NCBI RefSeq assembly: GCF_003390845.1
Contig: NZ_QMEK01000001.1
Coordinates: 930,001-994,000, forward strand
Origin: Tropicimonas sp. IMCC34043
GTDB lineage: Bacteria; Pseudomonadota; Alphaproteobacteria; Rhodobacterales; Rhodobacteraceae
Length of the DNA stretch: 64,000 nucleotides
Direction of reading: 5' to 3'
The position numbers were made by a program, and so were the translations under genes. The notes below the pieces were generated by a model. It saw only the letters and a list, made by a program, of their open reading frames with translations, had not been told where the DNA came from and did no database searches. This document shows, piece after piece, positions 36,078 through 45,989 of the stretch; positions within the stretch are counted from its first letter, which is position 1; each line of letters begins with the position of its first letter.

Positions 36078-38045
36078 ATGTCTGCTAAATCGAAGGGCGC
36101 TCCGGAAACGGGCGCGATTCCGGCCGATTTTCTGGCCAAGGCCCATCTGGACGCGGCCGGCTATGAAAAGATGTATGCAGAATCGATCAATGATCCTGAA
36201 AAGTTCTGGGGGGAACAGGGCAAGCGCCTGGACTGGATCAAACCCTATACCAAAGTGAAAGATACCAGCTTCGCGCCCGGCAATGTGTCGATCAAGTGGT
36301 TCGAGGACGGCACGCTGAACGTTGCCGCCAACTGCATCGATCGCCATTTGGCCAAGCGCGGCAATCAGACCGCCATTATCTTCGAACCCGATGACGTGCA
36401 CGAGCCGGCGCAATACATCACCTATCGCCAGTTGCACAATCAGGTCTGCAAGTTCGCCAACGTGCTCGAGACCCTGGGCATTCGCAAGGGCGACCGGGTG
36501 GTCCTGTATCTTCCGATGATCCCCGAAGCGGCCTATGCGATGCTGGCCTGCGCGCGGATCGGCGCGATCCATTCGATCGTCTTCGCCGGTTTCTCGCCCG
36601 AGGCACTGGCCGCCCGTGTCAACGGCTGCGACGCCAAGCTCGTCATCACCGCCGACTATGCCCCCCGCGGCGGCCGCAAGACCGCGCTGAAGGCAAACAC
36701 CGACGCCGCGATGCTGCACGTGATCCACGACCCGAGCGTTCTGGTTGTCCGCCGCACCCGCGAGCAGACCACCTGGGTCGAGGGCCGCGACTTCGACTAT
36801 GGCGAGATGATGCTGGAGGCCAGCGACGTCAACACGCCGGCCGAGATCGGTGCCGAGGATCCGCTGTTCATCCTCTACACCTCGGGGTCGACCGGCCACC
36901 CGAAGGGTGTGGTTCACACCTCTGGCGGCTACCTGCTTTATGCCGCGCTCACCCATGAATACGTGTTCGACTATCACCCGGGCGACGTGTTCTGGTGCAC
37001 GGCGGACGTGGGCTGGGTAACCGGGCACAGCTATATCGTCTATGGCCCGCTGGCGAACGGCGCGACGACGGTGATGTTCGAGGGCGTGCCGACATTCCCC
37101 GATGCCGGCCGGTTCTGGGAGGTCTGCGAGAAGCACAAGGTCAACCAGTTCTATACCGCGCCGACCGCAATCCGGGCCCTGATGGGGCATGGCGACGAGT
37201 GGGTCGCCAAGCACGACCTCAGCTCGCTGCGGCTGCTCGGCTCGGTCGGCGAGCCGATCAACCCCGAGGCATGGCACTGGTACAACGAGAAAGTCGGCAA
37301 GGGCAGATGCCCGATCGTCGACACCTGGTGGCAGACCGAAACCGGCGGCCACCTGATCACGCCGCTGCCGGGTGCGATCCCGACCAAGCCCGGCTCGGCC
37401 ACGGTGCCGTTCTTCGGCGTGCAGCCGGTGGTTCTCGACCCGCAGACCGGCGAGGAGATCCAGCAGACCGAAGCCGAGGGCGTGCTGTGCCTGAAGGACA
37501 GCTGGCCGGGCCAGATGCGCGGCGTCTGGGACGACCATGGCCGGTTCGAAAAGACCTATTTTGCCGATTACAAGAACTATTACTTCTCGGGTGACGGCTG
37601 CCGGCGCGATGCCGACGGCTATTACTGGATCACCGGCCGGGTCGATGACGTCATCAACGTCTCGGGTCACCGGATGGGCACGGCGGAAGTGGAAAGCGCG
37701 CTGGTCGCGCACCCGAAAGTCGCCGAGGCCGCGGTGGTCGGTTATCCGCATCAGCTGAAGGGGCAGGGCATCTATTGCTATGTCACGCTGATGAACGACG
37801 TCGAACCCAGCGACGAGCTCTACAAGGAATTGCGGACCTGGGTCCGTCACGAGATCGGCCCGATTGCGACACCCGACCTGATCCAGTGGTCGCCCGGGCT
37901 GCCAAAGACACGATCGGGCAAGATCATGCGCCGCATCTTGCGGAAGATTGCCGAAAACGACTACGGCACGCTTGGAGATACCTCCACGCTCGCCGACCCT
38001 TCCGTCGTCGAGGATCTGATCAACAACCGCATGAACAAGGGCTGA
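36078..38045 (+). CDS. acs: Acetyl-CoA synthetase
   Basis: Activates acetate with ATP and CoA to acetyl-CoA, AMP and pyrophosphate; 655 residues. The ANL-family core motif [15 protein letters not shown], the WWQTETGGH loop and the [18 protein letters not shown] hinge are intact. [15 protein letters not shown] carries Lys615, the lysine that is acetylated to switch Acs off in other bacteria. AGGGAGG lies before the ATG at 36078. It heads an acetate module: adk follows after three bases, then DUF4212, symporter and regulators. Confidence 0.97.
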
Positions 38046-38845: not shown

Positions 38846-39106
38846 ATGTCGGACAATCCTGAAAATAACACGTACTGGTCGGCGAATATTCGTATCGTCA
38901 CCTGGTGCCTTGTGATCTGGGCAATTGTGCCTTTCGGCTTCGGCATTCTGCTGAGGTCGATGTTCTCCGGAGTGATGATCGGCGGTGCGGACCTGGGCTT
39001 CTGGGTCGCGCAGCAAGGCTCGATCCTCGTCTTCCTTGCGATCATCTTCTTCTACGCCTGGCGGATGAACAGGCTCGACGCCCAGTACGGCGTGGACGAG
39101 CAATAA
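38846..39106 (+). CDS. DUF4212 small subunit of the symporter
   Basis: An 86-residue protein with two membrane helices (about 15-39 and 51-72) and the family start NTYWSANIRIVTWCLVIW. DUF4212 proteins are found immediately upstream of VC_2705-type sodium/solute symporters and are taken as a small subunit. AGGGGGGAGGG precedes the ATG at 38846; longer in-frame starts bury that site. The symporter gene starts 20 bases downstream. Confidence 0.92.
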   Translation: MSDNPENNTYWSANIRIVTWCLVIWAIVPFGFGILLRSMFSGVMIGGADLGFWVAQQGSILVFLAIIFFYAWRMNRLDAQYGVDEQ

Positions 39107-39126: not shown

Positions 39127-40914
39127 ATGGATCAGTTTACAATCAACCTGCTGTTTGTGGGGGCCTCTTTTGCGCTCTACATCGGCATCGCGATCTGGGC
39201 CCGCGCGGGTTCGACCAGCGAGTTCTATGCCGCCGGCCGCGGCGTTCACCCGGTTCTGAACGGCATGGCCACCGGTGCCGATTGGATGTCGGCGGCCTCG
39301 TTCATCTCGATGGCGGGCCTCATCGCCTTCGTGGGCTATGACAACTCCACCTATCTGATGGGCTGGACCGGCGGCTATGTGCTGCTGGCGCTGCTGCTTG
39401 CACCCTATCTGCGCAAGTTCGGCAAATACACCGTGCCCGAGTTCATCGGCGACCGGTTCTACAGCCCGACCGCCCGCATGGTGGCGGTGCTGTGCCTGAT
39501 CATCGCCTCGGTCACGTACGTGATCGGCCAGATGACCGGCGTCGGCGTGGCCTTTGGCCGCTTTCTCGAAGTCTCCAACACCACTGGCCTGCTGATCGGT
39601 GCAGTCGTCGTTTTCGCCTATGCGGTGTTCGGCGGCATGAAGGGGGTGACCTATACCCAGGTGGCGCAATACTGCGTGCTGATCCTGGCCTACACGATCC
39701 CCGCAGTCTTCATCTCGCTGCAACTGACCGGCAAGGTGATCCCCGGGCTTGGCCTCTTTGGCACCGACATGTCGTCGGGCGAGCCGCTGCTGCTCAAGCT
39801 TGACCAGATCGTCACCGACCTCGGCTTCAAGTCCTACACCGGTCACCACACCGACACGCTGAACATGGTTCTGTTCACCCTGTCGCTGATGATCGGCACC
39901 GCCGGATTGCCGCACGTTATCATGCGGTTCTTTACGGTGCCGCGCGTGGCCGATGCACGCTGGTCCGCGGGCTGGGCGCTGGTCTTCATCGCGCTGCTCT
40001 ATCTGACGGCCCCGGCCGTGGGCGCGATGGCGCGGTTCAACATCACCAACCAGTTCTGGCCGAACGGGACCGAAGGCGAAGCGGTGTCTCTCGAAACCAT
40101 TGCCAACGATCCGGCCTATCACTGGATGGCGACCTGGGAGAAGACCGGTCTTCTGAAATGGGAAGACAAGAACGACGACGGCAAGATCCAGTACTACAAT
40201 GACAAGAACCCCGACATGGAAGCCCGTGCCACGGCGAACGGCTGGGTCGGGAACGAGCTGACGAAGTTCGACAACGACATTCTGGTTCTTGCGAACCCGG
40301 AAATTGCAAACCTGCCGGGCTGGGTGATCGGTCTGGTGGCTGCCGGTGGCCTTGCCGCCGCGCTGTCCACGGCTGCGGGTCTGCTGCTGGCGATCTCGTC
40401 GGCCGTGTCGCACGACCTGATGAAGGGGCAACTGACGCCGAACATGTCGGAATCCTCGGAACTGATGTCGGCGCGGGTTGCCATGGCGGTTGCCATCGCG
40501 GTTGCGACCTATCTCGGGCTCAACCCCCCGGGCTTTGCCGCCCAGACGGTTGCACTCGCCTTCGGTCTGGCCGCCGCGTCGATCTTCCCGGCGCTGATGA
40601 TGGGGATCTTCACCAAGCGGATCAACAACGTGGGTGCGGTTGTCGGCATGCTCGTCGGCCTGCTGTTCACCATGGTGTACATCTTCCTGCACAAGGGCTG
40701 GTTCTTCATCCCCGGCACCGCAAGCTTCCCCGACACTGTCGAGGGCTCGCTGTTCGGGATCCAGTCGACCGCCATCGGTGCGGTCGGGGCGCTGCTCAAC
40801 TTCGTCGCCGCGTTCGTGGTGTCGAGCATGACGGCCGCACCGCCGAAGGAGATCCAGGATCTGGTCGAAAGCGTCCGCATTCCGCGCGGCGCCGGGGCTG
40901 CGACGGATCACTGA
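39127..40914 (+). CDS. Sodium/solute symporter, acetate-uptake type (VC_2705 family)
   Basis: A 595-residue membrane protein with about 13 helices of the sodium:solute symporter family. Signatures are GADWMSAASFISMAG in helix 2 and MRFFTVPRVADARWSAGW. Between helices there is a long insertion (about 301-400) absent from shorter relatives. It contains a loop D347-K-N349-D-D351-G352-K-I354 that resembles a calcium-binding EF-hand loop, with Asn358/Asp359 at the last ligand position. Position beside acs and DUF4212 points to acetate (or a short carboxylate) uptake. AGGGGAACAGGGAC precedes the ATG at 39127. Confidence 0.93.
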   Translation: MDQFTINLLFVGASFALYIGIAIWARAGSTSEFYAAGRGVHPVLNGMATGADWMSAASFISMAGLIAFVGYDNSTYLMGWTGGYVLLALLLAPYLRKFGKYTVPEFIGDRFYSPTARMVAVLCLIIASVTYVIGQMTGVGVAFGRFLEVSNTTGLLIGAVVVFAYAVFGGMKGVTYTQVAQYCVLILAYTIPAVFISLQLTGKVIPGLGLFGTDMSSGEPLLLKLDQIVTDLGFKSYTGHHTDTLNMVLFTLSLMIGTAGLPHVIMRFFTVPRVADARWSAGWALVFIALLYLTAPAVGAMARFNITNQFWPNGTEGEAVSLETIANDPAYHWMATWEKTGLLKWEDKNDDGKIQYYNDKNPDMEARATANGWVGNELTKFDNDILVLANPEIANLPGWVIGLVAAGGLAAALSTAAGLLLAISSAVSHDLMKGQLTPNMSESSELMSARVAMAVAIAVATYLGLNPPGFAAQTVALAFGLAAASIFPALMMGIFTKRINNVGAVVGMLVGLLFTMVYIFLHKGWFFIPGTASFPDTVEGSLFGIQSTAIGAVGALLNFVAAFVVSSMTAAPPKEIQDLVESVRIPRGAGAATDH

Positions 40915-41036: not shown

Positions 41037-42878
41037 ATGTCAGACCCGGTCTCTGCCGACCACAAGCGCGTCATGCGGTTTCTCGAAGGCGTCCATCCCT
41101 ATGACAGTCTCGAACGCGAGGAATTGCGTCGGCTTGCCGGCATCTTCCGGCAGCGCGAGGTTGGACCGGGCGAGGTGGTCTATCGGATCGGCGACGTGCT
41201 CGAAGGTCTTTTCCTGATCGAGACCGGCGGGATCGAGATCACCGACGAAAACGACGCGCCGGTGTCGTTGCTGCGCGGGCGCAATTCCTTTGGCGAACGT
41301 GGGCTGGTGCGCGAGGGCGCGGCGATGACCAATGCGCGCGCGATCGAGGAGACCCGGCTGCTGCTGTTGCCGGTCGAGGAATTTCGCCGCCTGATGCAGT
41401 CGAGCCCGGTCTTTGCCCGGTTTTTCGACCGCGGCCGCACCGTGCTGCGCGAACGCCGCGGCGAGCTGGCGACACAGCGGGTCGGCGACCTGATGGCGCG
41501 CGACCCGATCACCGTTCCGCCTGAAACCCCGATCCGCCGGGCGGCGGAACTGATGCGCGACAACCATGTGTCGAGCCTTGCCATCACGGTGGACGAGGGG
41601 CGGCTTCTGGGCATCGTCACGTTGCGGGACATGGCCACACGGGCGGTCGCCTCGGGCCTGCCGGGCGATATTCCGGTCAGCCGGATCATGACCACCGATC
41701 CGGTCAGCCTTTCGCCATCGGCGCTCGGTTCGGACCTGTTGCACGTGATGCTGGAACGCCGGGTCGGCCATGTCACCGTGACCGAGGGCGACCGCATTGT
41801 CGGCATTCTGACCCAGACCGACCTGACCCGGTTTCAGGCCGTCAGTTCGGCCTCGATGGTCAGCGACATCGCCATGGCCGAGACACCGCAGCAGATGGCT
41901 GCGGTGACCGCCCGGTTGCCGCAACTTCTCATGCATCTGGTTGGCGCCAGCAGCCGGCACGAGGTTGTCACCCGGCTGATGACCGACATCGCCGATGCCT
42001 GCACCCGCCGGCTGCTGGCACTGGCCGAGGCAGAGCTCGGTGCGGCGCCGGTCGGCTATCTGTGGCTGGCCTGCGGATCGCAGGGCCGGCAGGAACAGAC
42101 GGGCGTGTCCGACCAGGACAACTGCCTGATCCTCGACGATGCGGCGACCGACGACGATCTGGTCTATTTCGACAGGCTGGCAAAGTTCGTGTCCGACGGG
42201 CTCGACGCCTGCGGATACTTCTATTGCCCGGGCGAGATGATGGCGACGACGCCGCGCTGGCGGCAGCGCGCCGCGACCTGGCGCAGCTATTTCCGCAGCT
42301 GGATCGAAACGCCCGACCCGATGGCCCAGATGCTGGCCTCGGTCATGTTCGACCTGCGCCCGATCGGCGGCGCGACCCGGCTGTTTCAGGACCTGCAGCT
42401 CGACACGCTCAGGCTCGCCCGCGCCAATTCGATCTTCGTCAGCCATATGATCGCCAATTCGCTGAAGCACACGCCGCCTCTGGGCCTGTTTCGCGGCTTT
42501 GCCACGGTCAAGTCGGGCGAACACAAGAACGAACTGGACCTGAAGATGAACGGCGTCGTGCCGGTCGTCGATCTGGGGCGGATCTATTCGCTGCGGGGCA
42601 CGCTGACCCAGGTCAACACCCGGGCGCGGCTGGAGGCAGCCGAGGCGCAGGGGGTCATCTCGCGCTCGGGCGCGCATGATCTGATTGACGCCTACGACCT
42701 GATCGCCGAGACCCGGCTGCGCAATCAGGCAAGCGAGATCCGCAATGGCCTGAAGCCCGACAACTTCATGCCGCCCTCGGATCTGAGCGATCTGGAACGC
42801 AGCCACCTGCGCGATGCCTTCGTCGTGGTGCGCACGATGCAGTCGGCAATCGGGCAAGGCAAGGGTATGCTGAGTTGA
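41037..42878 (+). CDS. cNMP-binding / CBS-pair / DUF294 nucleotidyltransferase-like protein
   Basis: A 613-residue soluble protein with four parts: a cyclic-nucleotide-binding domain (about 15-130), two CBS repeats (about 148-272), a DUF294 nucleotidyltransferase-like domain (about 300-440) and a C-terminal helical DUF294_C domain (about 470-610). The transferase-like site GSQGRQEQTGVSDQDN (347-362) keeps the G-S and D-x-D (Asp359, Asp361) features of GlnD/KNTase enzymes. The protein therefore may transfer a nucleotide to a protein or small molecule under control of cyclic nucleotides and adenylates. It lies downstream of the symporter, as in many acetate-uptake clusters. Target unknown. Confidence 0.93.
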   Translation: MSDPVSADHKRVMRFLEGVHPYDSLEREELRRLAGIFRQREVGPGEVVYRIGDVLEGLFLIETGGIEITDENDAPVSLLRGRNSFGERGLVREGAAMTNARAIEETRLLLLPVEEFRRLMQSSPVFARFFDRGRTVLRERRGELATQRVGDLMARDPITVPPETPIRRAAELMRDNHVSSLAITVDEGRLLGIVTLRDMATRAVASGLPGDIPVSRIMTTDPVSLSPSALGSDLLHVMLERRVGHVTVTEGDRIVGILTQTDLTRFQAVSSASMVSDIAMAETPQQMAAVTARLPQLLMHLVGASSRHEVVTRLMTDIADACTRRLLALAEAELGAAPVGYLWLACGSQGRQEQTGVSDQDNCLILDDAATDDDLVYFDRLAKFVSDGLDACGYFYCPGEMMATTPRWRQRAATWRSYFRSWIETPDPMAQMLASVMFDLRPIGGATRLFQDLQLDTLRLARANSIFVSHMIANSLKHTPPLGLFRGFATVKSGEHKNELDLKMNGVVPVVDLGRIYSLRGTLTQVNTRARLEAAEAQGVISRSGAHDLIDAYDLIAETRLRNQASEIRNGLKPDNFMPPSDLSDLERSHLRDAFVVVRTMQSAIGQGKGMLS

Positions 42879-42957: not shown

Positions 42958-43482
42958 ATGTTTCTGGAATTGATTGCCGCCGTCGTTGCCGGGATCATGA
43001 CCGCCGGCATCGTGATGGGGCTGTCGCGGCTGAGCGGTGGGCGCCTGCCGCGCTGGCTGACACCTGTGGCGGCCGGCTTGGGGATGATCTTTGTCGCCAT
43101 GGTACTGGAATACACCTGGTTCGAACGCACCAAGGCCGATCTGCCCGAGACCTTCGTGGTCACGGCGACCCATGGCCTGCGTCAGGCCTGGCGGCCCTGG
43201 ACCTATGGCTATCCGATCGTCGACCGCTTCGTTGCCGTCGATGCCGGGTCGGTGCGCCGCCATCCCGGTGCGCCGGGGCTGCGGATCGCCGATCTGCTGG
43301 CGTTCGGTCGCTGGGCGCCGGTGCGGAAGGTGACCATGATCTGGGATTGCGAGGGGCGCCGCGTCGCGCCGCTGGTCGAGACCGTGACGCTGGAGGAGAG
43401 CGGCGCGGTGACCGGTGCGGTCTGGGTGCCGCTTGCCGAGGATGACACCGCAGCAGAAGCTCTGTGCAAGGAGGAGCAATGA
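42958..43482 (+). CDS. Small membrane protein of the acetate module
   Basis: A 174-residue protein of no recognised family. Two helices (about 1-20 and 31-50) are followed by a soluble domain (about 60-174) with ADLPETFVVTATHGLRQAWRPWTYGYP. GGGAGGGG precedes the ATG at 42958. It ends one base before the receiver-domain gene, so co-translation is likely. Conservation in relatives at the same place is my recollection, not shown here. Confidence 0.75.
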   Translation: MFLELIAAVVAGIMTAGIVMGLSRLSGGRLPRWLTPVAAGLGMIFVAMVLEYTWFERTKADLPETFVVTATHGLRQAWRPWTYGYPIVDRFVAVDAGSVRRHPGAPGLRIADLLAFGRWAPVRKVTMIWDCEGRRVAPLVETVTLEESGAVTGAVWVPLAEDDTAAEALCKEEQ

Positions 43483-43483
43483 G

Positions 43484-43888
43484 ATGCATGCAGAGACCCG
43501 TCCCGCCCGCATCCTGATTGTCGAGGACGAGGACAATATCGCGCTTGCGCTGATCCATGTGATGGGGCGCGAGGGATGGGCGGTCAGGCGGGTCGACGCC
43601 GGCGAGGCGGCGATGACCGAGATCGCGACCGAGCGACCGGATCTGGTGCTGCTCGATGTCATGCTGCCGGGGATCTCGGGCTATGAGGTCTGCCAGCAGA
43701 TCCGCCTCGATCCCGAGCTTGCGAGCGTGAAGATCCTGATGATGACGGCGCGCGGCAATGCGATGGAGCGGCGCAAGGGGCTGGCACTCGGGGCCGACGG
43801 GTTTGTCGCCAAGCCCTTCAACCTGTCGGATCTGATGGCCGAGGCGCGCCGCCTGCTGTCGGGTGCAACGGAGGAAAGCGATGCTTGA
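43484..43888 (+). CDS. Single-domain response regulator (receiver only)
   Basis: A 134-residue stand-alone receiver with all key residues: acidic Glu14/Asp15, phospho-acceptor Asp58 (LVLLDVMLPG), Thr88 and Lys110 (AKPF). There is no DNA-binding output domain, so it must act through protein contact or as a phosphate sink. GGAGGAGC precedes the ATG. It overlaps by eight bases the sensor-exonuclease gene, whose kinase part lacks a phospho-acceptor His, so its phosphodonor is not obvious from this locus. Confidence 0.93.
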   Translation: MHAETRPARILIVEDEDNIALALIHVMGREGWAVRRVDAGEAAMTEIATERPDLVLLDVMLPGISGYEVCQQIRLDPELASVKILMMTARGNAMERRKGLALGADGFVAKPFNLSDLMAEARRLLSGATEESDA

Positions 43889-45989
43889 CCGAATGGAACG
43901 GCTGAGCCTGCGCCTCAGGGTGTTCCTGTTTTTCGTCGTGCTGGCATTGGGCGGCGTCGGGGTGATCCTTGCCGGTCTCTGGATCGGATACAACAAGGTG
44001 CCGCCGGGGGTCGAGGCAGCGCCAGCCTTCATCGACGCCGGTCTGGTGGCGATCTTCGGTCTGCTGGGGCTGATCGTCTGGATCTGGCTGATGTTCGACG
44101 AACATGTCGCAAAGGCAATCCTGAAGCTTGCCGGGCTGTTGCGGGCGCGGGCCCACGCCGAGGTGGCGGGCGATATCGATCTGAAACACGTACGCTATCT
44201 GGGCGATCTGGCGCCGGCCGCACAGGCGATTACCGGCACCCTGGCCGAGACCCGCAATGCGCTTGCCGAGGCGGTCGAGCGCGAAACCACGCGGCTCGCG
44301 ATCGAAAACGCCCGGTTGCAGGTGCTGTTGGCCGATGTGCCGGCGGGCGTCATGCTGTGCTCGTCCGACCACCAGATCGTGTTCTACAACGGCACAGCCC
44401 ACGGGCTGTTGTCGGGCGAGATGACGCCGGGGCTCGACCGGTCGGTGCTGGATTATCTGAGCCAGGGACCGATCTGCAACGCCTATGACCGGCTTGTGCA
44501 GAGCCAGCAGCGCGATGCGGCCTGCGATGTGCTGTGCGTGGCGGTGCAGTCGGGCCAGATGCTCGCGGGGCGCATGCGCCTGGTCACGTTGCCCGGCCGC
44601 AGCGCCGAGGCGCCGGGATATGTCTTGACGCTGCGGGACGTTACCGCCGATCTTGCACTGCACGCGGGCCGCGAGGCACTGCTGGAGGAGTTGTTCGACC
44701 GGGTGCGTCGGCCGGCGGCAAATTTGCAGACCGTTCTCGCCTCGGGGGCGGGCGAGGCGGGCGAGGGGAGGGCGGCGCTGATGAGCGAGGTGGGGTCTTT
44801 GAGCCAAGCGATTACCGATCTGGCGCAACGCTATGACACCGAACACGGCAACTGGTGGCCCATGGAGGACGTGCAGGCGTCGGAACTGGTCGAGAGCGTC
44901 GTGGCGCTGATGGCACGCGACCGCGTCACGCTGATCGCAGAGGCGGAACCGCTCGTGTTGCATTGCGATGCCTTCCAGATCGGCGCGCTGCTGACCCACC
45001 TGTGCGAGCGGCTGGTCACCGTTCTCGGCGCCCGCGCGCTGTCGCTCAGGATCGCTGTTGACGACGACGGGGCCGGAGCGTTGCTGACGCTCGGCTGGCA
45101 GGGGCCGGTGTTGCAGATCGGGCTGCTGGAGGGCTGGCTCGACGTGCCGCTCGAAGTGGGGCTTGCAAATGTCACCGGGCGCAGCGTGCTCGAGGCGCAT
45201 GGCACCGAGGCCTGGCCGGAGCCCGGGATGGCGGGGCGCGCGATCCTGCGCATGCCGCTGCCGGTGGCACGGCCGGCCAAGGCGGCGGTGGCTCCGGCAC
45301 GGCGTTCGGCGGTCTATGACTTCGACCTGCTCGACCGCGAGCCGAGCGGAGAACTGGCAAAGACCCCGTTGCGCGATCTGACCTGCGTGGTCTTCGACAC
45401 CGAGACCACCGGGCTTCTGCCATCCTCGGGCGACGAGATCGTTCAGATCGCGGCGCTGCGGCTGCTTGGCGGCAAACGCGTGCCGGGCGAGGAATTCGAG
45501 AGCCTGGTCAACCCCGGCCGGACGATCCCCGCGGCCTCGACCGAGGTGCATCACATCACAGACGCGATGGTGGCCGATGCACCGCCGATTGCCGTCGCCG
45601 GGCGCAGGTTTCATGCCTTTGCCAAGGGGGCGGTGCTGGTCGCCCACAACGCGCCCTTCGATCTGGAGTTCCTGCGCCGGCATGAGGCGGATATCGGCGT
45701 GCAGTTCGACAACCCGGTGCTCGACACCGTGCTGCTGTCGGCCGTGGTGTTCGGGCAGTCCGAGACCCATACGCTCGACGCGCTGACCGAGCGGCTGGGG
45801 ATCGTGATTCCGGCCGAGGCGCGGCACACCGCGATGGGCGACACGATTGCGACCGCGGCCGCGCTGGAAAAGATGATCCCGATGCTGGAGGGCAAGGGCT
45901 GCCGCACCTTTGGCGATGTGATTGCGGCGGTGCGCAAACATGGCCGGCTGCTGAAGGATCTCAACAGCCCCGAGCACGCCCCGGAGTAG
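43881..45989 (+). CDS. Membrane sensor pseudokinase fused to a DEDDh 3'-5' exonuclease
   Basis: A 702-residue protein. Two membrane helices (about 13-35 and 51-72) are followed by a short linker, a PAS-like domain (about 140-255), a dimerisation/histidine-kinase-like region (about 258-320) and a degenerate ATPase-like part (about 330-460). A complete DnaQ-type exonuclease (about 500-680) forms the C-terminus. Exonuclease residues are Asp506/Glu508 (FDTETTG), Asp594 (VAHNAPFDLEFL), His649 and Asp654 (RHTAMGD), a full DEDDh set. In the kinase H-box (LFDRVRRPAANL) Asp273 stands where the phospho-acceptor His is expected, and no clear N- or G-box follows. GAGGAA precedes the ATG. The substrate could be RNA or DNA. 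Confidence 0.88.
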   Translation: MLDRMERLSLRLRVFLFFVVLALGGVGVILAGLWIGYNKVPPGVEAAPAFIDAGLVAIFGLLGLIVWIWLMFDEHVAKAILKLAGLLRARAHAEVAGDIDLKHVRYLGDLAPAAQAITGTLAETRNALAEAVERETTRLAIENARLQVLLADVPAGVMLCSSDHQIVFYNGTAHGLLSGEMTPGLDRSVLDYLSQGPICNAYDRLVQSQQRDAACDVLCVAVQSGQMLAGRMRLVTLPGRSAEAPGYVLTLRDVTADLALHAGREALLEELFDRVRRPAANLQTVLASGAGEAGEGRAALMSEVGSLSQAITDLAQRYDTEHGNWWPMEDVQASELVESVVALMARDRVTLIAEAEPLVLHCDAFQIGALLTHLCERLVTVLGARALSLRIAVDDDGAGALLTLGWQGPVLQIGLLEGWLDVPLEVGLANVTGRSVLEAHGTEAWPEPGMAGRAILRMPLPVARPAKAAVAPARRSAVYDFDLLDREPSGELAKTPLRDLTCVVFDTETTGLLPSSGDEIVQIAALRLLGGKRVPGEEFESLVNPGRTIPAASTEVHHITDAMVADAPPIAVAGRRFHAFAKGAVLVAHNAPFDLEFLRRHEADIGVQFDNPVLDTVLLSAVVFGQSETHTLDALTERLGIVIPAEARHTAMGDTIATAAALEKMIPMLEGKGCRTFGDVIAAVRKHGRLLKDLNSPEHAPE

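Follow-up and report, generated by a model that had tools for sequence, protein, structure and literature searches.

The locus studied here raises the question of whether a membrane-bound protein with a dead histidine-kinase core could control the exonuclease to which it is fused. It lies in a window of 64,000 nucleotides from Tropicimonas sp. IMCC34043 (contig NZ_QMEK01000001.1, positions 930,001 to 994,000), and all the features described below are on the forward strand. The original prediction had placed a protein of 702 residues at positions 43881-45989, and translation of this open reading frame returned exactly that position and length. Near full-length matches to the window protein, with 41-74% identity, were found at 29 loci (L003-L031). 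From the translation, the relatives, an AlphaFold model made from 50 of them (mean pLDDT 87.2) and Foldseek searches, the architecture was confirmed as one polypeptide carrying two membrane helices, a PAS domain, a kinase-like DHp hairpin followed by a CA fold, and a DEDDh exonuclease.

The two membrane helices that had been proposed were recovered as hydrophobic 19-residue windows at approximately residues 5-38 and 43-77. By hydropathy and the model, they were set at residues 10-38 (positions 43908-43994) and 47-75 (44019-44105), the second continuing into a signalling helix. As only eight residues separate them in the model, an outer sensor domain would have no room in the presumed orientation of the helices. 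Moreover, some relatives (L153, L156 and L158) consist of membrane helices plus exonuclease only, so that the idea of sensing at the membrane itself was not borne out. The PAS domain, presumably cytoplasmic, occupies residues 152-256 (44334-44648) in Pfam and in the model. In the window protein it was matched by PAS_4 with an E-value of 0.0012, below the cut-off of that profile, while in 50 relatives (E ≤ 0.1) PAS_4 matched 34, PAS_8 29, PAS_9 22 and PAS 20.

Regarding the kinase-like core, neither HisKA nor HATPase_c of Pfam matched the window protein, and the sole NCBIfam match of a kinase core was NblS, with 29.5 bits against a cut-off of 1000. Among 50 relatives, HisKA matched five (best E-value 5e-4) and HATPase_c one (0.052). 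Since profiles miss this core in the window protein, structure was used in their place. A DHp-like two-helix hairpin was delimited at residues 255-325 (44643-44855) from the model, Foldseek and the alignment, and a degenerate CA/ATPase-like domain at residues 329-465 (44865-45275) from the model and the alignment. The hairpin helices (255-287 and 294-325) had pLDDT values of about 75-85, and the CA-like part values mostly of 91-97. Searched against the PDB with Foldseek, the middle part of the model matched the sensor kinases WalK (9a5d), 4i5s, chimeric LOV kinases, ThkA (3a0r, with TrrA) and DivL (4q20), with E-values from 7e-16 to 5e-8, low TM-scores and rmsd values of 14-22 Å, which are large because several domains were superposed at once. 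DivL matched at 5e-8 and was outranked by many other kinases. Judged from the model, the kinase core is real despite being missed by Pfam HisKA, and it has the DHp plus CA fold of functional sensor histidine kinases, as read from these E-values and large multi-domain rmsd values. The kinase-like dimerisation region foreseen at residues 258-320 was upheld by the model and Foldseek, which relate it to histidine-kinase DHp domains. With the full protein as query, no kinase-like paralogue was found in the genome itself, in which 29 HisKA matches occur, none of them at 43881-45989.

The residues that make such a core catalytic were largely replaced. The place of the phospho-acceptor His is taken by Asp273 (44697-44699), as had been claimed, and in 80 aligned hairpin-bearing relatives this place holds Glu (37), Asp (28), Ala (5), Thr (3), Ser (2), Pro (2), Gly (1), Met (1) or Gln (1), and never His. 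An acidic residue is thus present in 65 of the 80, and neither the window protein nor these relatives carry the phospho-acceptor His of functional HisKA kinases. Because the loss is common to the family, it is not a peculiarity of the window protein, and the replacement must be old. A phosphorylatable His at another place in close homologues, which would have spoken against a dead core, was sought and found neither at the H-box nor as a general feature elsewhere in the hairpin: among 50 relatives, His was found at position 261 in 29, at 318 in 11, at 309 in seven and at 266 in five. An invariant histidine, His440 (80/80), belongs to the CA part and follows the G2 region. Moreover, the Asp of the G1 box is replaced by Trp406 (Trp in 48 of 50 and then 78 of 80 relatives) and the Asn of the N-box was not recognisable at the places compared, the boxes being placed by eye, so that functional N and G1 boxes are lacking and the ATPase part is degenerate, as originally described. 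Other positions were retained, namely Trp445 (78 of 80) and Arg276 (44706-44708), three residues after the His place, found in 77 of the 80. The combination of a non-His acceptor place with Arg at His+3 is that of DivL.

The exonuclease domain covers residues 500-690 (45378-45950) according to Pfam, fold and alignment, and is preceded by a conserved linker motif, YDFDLL (residues 479-484, 45315-45332). The Pfam profile RNase_T matched residues 503-661 with an E-value of 1.2e-33. The DEDDh set had been assigned to Asp506, Glu508, Asp594, His649 and Asp654, and was found at these very places and intact in all 120 aligned relatives. Foldseek matched this part to DnaQ/PolC exonucleases, mostly within 2-3 Å, and its nearest solved relatives are of the DnaQ/PolC type by both sequence and fold. 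The exonuclease is therefore apparently intact, with a predicted 3′-5′ activity.

A single-domain response regulator of 134 residues (43484-43888; Response_reg, 1.9e-26 in Pfam) is encoded directly upstream and overlaps the exonuclease gene by eight bases. It has no output domain, and its phospho-acceptor Asp58 and its Lys110 were kept in all 76 aligned regulators. With a phospho-competent CheY-like regulator directly upstream, it is more probable that the kinase shell serves to receive this regulator than that it is an orphan. The joint retention of both parts was examined with an H-box motif that was defined, after the data had been seen, as a complete hairpin with Arg at His+3. In 120 relatives, motif and adjacent regulator agreed in 116 (both present in 75, neither in 41), two having only the motif and two only the regulator; the first 100 rows gave 57 with both, 40 with neither, two with the motif only and one with the regulator only. 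The motif is kept next to no regulator in L144 and L209, while L020 and L206 kept the regulator with Ser at His+3. Hairpin length alone agreed with the regulator in 117 of 120 (exceptions L108, L144 and L209), or in 115 if L154 and L155 are scored as regulator-bearing. These two have no hairpin and carry the same regulator family 1.5-1.6 kb off, on the far side of the DUF294 gene; they were scored as regulator-less because it lies more than 800 bases away.

The same trend was seen across the different forms of the protein. The family of the window also contains a short form, some 470 residues long, that keeps PAS and exonuclease without hairpin and CA, and the regulator adjoins none of the 29 short forms. 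It is likewise absent from six loci that form one clade and have a decayed hairpin (L026, L027 and L042-L045). In the class, it accompanies 10 of 11 long-form loci (nine above 100 bits and the divergent L146, with L144 as the exception). Other families contributed 19 more long-form loci, of which 17 lie outside the class, and 18 of these 19 have the regulator, L209 being without it. The label of L146 was changed to regulator-bearing on reading its divergent regulator, and those of L200-L219 were also set by reading. This divergent REC domain (L146:6759-7415, 44 bits) lies upstream of the long form and retains an Asp and a Lys-Pro-Phe motif. Three loci were dropped before the 100- and 120-row counts: L003 (sharing a contig with L032), L051 (cut) and L111 (gene split in two ORFs, regulator present). 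From the 20 class loci, seven without an alignable PAS/kinase half were also dropped (L153 and L156-L161), whose maps show no match to the regulator family above 65 bits; weak REC matches occur in two ORFs of L160 and, at L158, once in an upstream ORF of 858 residues.

Alignment A1 comprised 39 of 58 long forms, to which the 11 class loci L142-L152 were joined in A2. The trees were built quickly and contain several long branches (L108, L109, L110 and L146 among them). A test on phylogenetically independent pairs gave a mean of 4.8 pairs one way and none the opposite way for the 100-row set (median P-value of 0.0625), and 4.4 and none for the 120-row set (median of 0.125), with P-values ranging up to 0.25. 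This test is small, and the co-retention of hairpin and regulator is suggestive rather than decisive. Furthermore, in the covariation between regulator and hairpin the docking faces ranked higher, with P-values of 0.03 and 0.015 and then of 0.011 and 0.0004, which stem from 45 region-by-face comparisons. The exonuclease and the linker also covaried with the alpha5 face of the regulator (0.0004 and 0.0006), and the hairpin was not enriched among the top 200 covarying pairs (6 vs. 5.2 expected). Covariation is thus a weak indicator of the known docking faces and no proof of docking.

Two rival explanations bear on the kinase-like part. It might be a dying remnant, the working protein being the anchor, PAS and exonuclease, with the regulator lost as operons were trimmed; the 29 short forms that do without hairpin and CA would fit this, as would L154 and L155, where the hairpin is gone and the regulator is still nearby. 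Selection gives a divided answer. In the five pairs with at least 85% identity, among the 23 listed, dN/dS was 0.15-0.36 in the CA part, which evolves faster than the other parts, but only 0.07-0.17 in the hairpin, and 0.06-0.09 in the exonuclease. For pairs with 76-83% identity, the hairpin gave 0.38 and 0.35 in two regulator-less pairs vs. 0.39 in a pair with the regulator (L046/L049), so that this ratio does not separate the two groups; more distant pairs were saturated and left out of use. A decaying part would, however, hardly keep Arg276, Trp406, His440 and Trp445, each in at least 77 of 80 relatives, nor would a regulator be expected beside nearly all long forms, in the class (10 of 11) as well as among the additional loci (18 of 19), and we consider a remnant unlikely. 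Slightly less probable still is that the protein handles phosphate, whether as the regulator's phosphatase, as its phosphate sink or through phosphorylation at another residue, with the exonuclease as a passenger. The regulator gene directly upstream, with its phospho-site kept in 76 of 76, would suit this, but the hairpin has no generally conserved His, the G1 Asp is lost and the N-box is unrecognisable; moreover, no kinase or phosphatase activity is shown by DivL, the closest example that has been studied (PMC4211667).

The genes preceding the regulator place this protein in an operon of acetate type. An acetyl-CoA synthetase (acs) is encoded at 36078-38045 (ACAS_N and AMP-binding in Pfam) and lies, with adk, upstream of the symporter/DUF294 operon. 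There follow a small membrane subunit (38846-39106), presumably DUF4212, identified by reading and placement and conserved beside the symporter; a sodium:solute symporter (39127-40914, SSF in Pfam), which from the operon type we take to be ActP-like; and a cNMP-binding/CBS/DUF294 nucleotidyltransferase (41037-42878), recognised from Pfam, the nucleotidyltransferase motif and co-occurrence. Its polymerase-beta-type motif was found in 79 of 79 proteins. After it, a conserved small protein with no Pfam match (42958-43482) ends one base before the regulator. Among the loci listed for the window's family, this small protein occurs in most (it is absent from L051, L108 and L109), and it is also kept where the regulator is absent.

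In 149 genomes of the window's family, the exonuclease family was found in 72 (E ≤ 1e-60) and DUF294 in 74 (at least 100 bits), all 72 being shared. In the other two genomes with DUF294, and in one outside the family, the exonuclease, two CBS domains and DUF294 were joined in one ORF. Fusions of RNase_T, two CBS domains and DUF294 in this manner lie at L162:4506-6776, L163:5188-7284 and L164:4062-6320, and Pfam detected no membrane domain in them. The pairing in 72 of 72 genomes and the natural fusions are strong evidence, drawn from comparative genomics, that the exonuclease and the DUF294 nucleotidyltransferase serve one process.

As for its distribution, named relatives of the window's family come from Tropicimonas, Celeribacter, Roseovarius, Shimia and others, by which the phylum is taken to be Pseudomonadota. 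The coupling of a membrane sensor to an exonuclease had been called unusual, a view that the counts do not favour: whole-protein matches (E ≤ 1e-30) were present in 29 of 385 class genomes and matches to the exonuclease part (E ≤ 1e-28) in 55 of 349 phylum genomes, not all of them with the same architecture. Among the matches listed from the open-licence literature (titles and beginnings of abstracts), no description of the fusion was found. At L157:6243-7763 and L160:6274-7782, next to DUF294, an RNase_T exonuclease was seen joined to an EamA transporter. From the membrane-helix and EamA fusions of the relatives, membrane tethering appears to be recurrent, though not universal. The locus is part of a conserved module of known parts, in which a pseudo-kinase probably acts as the reader of a response regulator, the output being an exonuclease and the companion a nucleotidyltransferase.

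The best reading of the fusion is still the one first proposed, that of a signal-controlled nuclease, in which the gating would fall to the sensor half. In particular, we lean, by a modest margin of confidence, towards a membrane pseudo-kinase that would dock the regulator and gate the exonuclease, which would itself act together with DUF294 in the use of acetate and pyruvate. The single-domain regulator would be phosphorylated by another kinase or by acetyl phosphate and, in the manner of DivK~P on DivL, would then dock on the dead DHp hairpin. Hairpin and PAS might in turn determine how active the exonuclease is, or its access, on the inner side of the membrane, and exonuclease and DUF294 from the same operon may together control the uptake and use of monocarboxylates such as acetate and pyruvate.

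The substrate invites two further proposals. It is conceivable, as a tentative alternative compatible with docking, that the exonuclease trims mainly the 3′ ends of mRNA or tRNA and so tunes carbon-use genes, with DUF294 as an RNA-tailing enzyme. Its closest solved relatives, the DnaQ/PolC-type enzymes, act on DNA, and no RNA-binding domain was among the Pfam matches of the window protein, both of which speak against RNA; yet the RNase_T match, the polymerase-beta-type motif of all 79 DUF294 proteins and a speculation made by the authors who studied Pseudomonas putida PP_0353 (PMC9927547) agree with it. More doubtful is a writer/eraser switch, in which DUF294 would add nucleotides, the exonuclease would remove them and the phosphorylated regulator would set the rate of the eraser through the dead kinase. 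DUF294 would then sense a cAMP-like ligand and ligands of its CBS domains, and its nucleotides could be attached to an RNA 3′ end, to the symporter or to some other protein.

Two-component parts lead in most cases to the control of genes or to motility, while the conserved receiver and dead kinase found here appear to lead to a nuclease. Within the phylum, the exonuclease family is spread over many groups of family rank; in the family of the window it is tied to DUF294 and to the acetate-type operon. If the docking reading holds, the protein would join DivL among the pseudo-kinases that act as readers of response regulators, and its output would be an enzyme that is easy to assay. For DUF294 nucleotidyltransferases the locus also offers a partner that can be tested, as it does for the PP_0353-type exonuclease, whose role was left open by the authors who studied it. 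If the writer/eraser switch were true, an exonuclease removing nucleotide marks under two-component parts would be a new type of control.

Compared with known systems, the window protein shares fold and catalytic set with the DEDDh exonucleases of DnaQ/PolC type, but differs from them in its fusion to a membrane anchor, a PAS domain and a dead kinase. A looser analogy is offered by the GlnD-type nucleotidyltransferases, where an enzyme that adds nucleotides is likewise paired with a remover. GlnD carries its own HD remover domain, while a Pfam scan found no such domain in the window's DUF294 protein and the candidate remover would be the DEDDh exonuclease. DUF294_C has been grouped with the C-terminal domains of GlnD and GlnE (PMC3710099).

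The nearest studied genes to the module are those of P. putida PP_0353 (RNase_T) and PP_0354 (a CBS protein), which share an operon, are targets of MxtR/ErdR (CrbS/CrbR) and are linked to actP (PMC9927547). Compared by gene content, both modules hold an exonuclease and a CBS/DUF294-type protein near a symporter, but the available text of that study mentions no regulator or kinase-like part (PMC9927547). Deletion of PP_0353 slowed growth on pyruvate, as did loss of actP-I, and deletion of PP_0354 had no effect on it, while growth on acetate was unharmed by deleting either gene (PMC9927547). The growth tests argue against DNA scavenging as a role for PP_0353 (PMC9927547). In P. fluorescens, a mutant in the CBS/nucleotidyltransferase gene was without phenotype, and the annotation of Pflu5625 lists domains for cAMP binding, CBS and nucleotidyltransferase (PMC5715377); in P. 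aeruginosa PA3232-PA3235 rose about 16-fold on propionate (PMC9765439).

The closest studied logic, by analogy, is that of DivL and DivK in Caulobacter. As in the putative pair of the window, a PAS domain precedes a His-less kinase core with Arg at His+3 and a poor ATP site, and the partner is a single-domain regulator; in DivL this Arg, R553, is required for binding DivK~P (PMC4211667). DivL has Tyr at the acceptor place and modulates CckA, whereas the window protein and most of its relatives have Asp or Glu (PMC4211667 for DivL). Unlike DivL, the window protein has its putative binding partner encoded next door and an exonuclease fused to its own kinase-like core.
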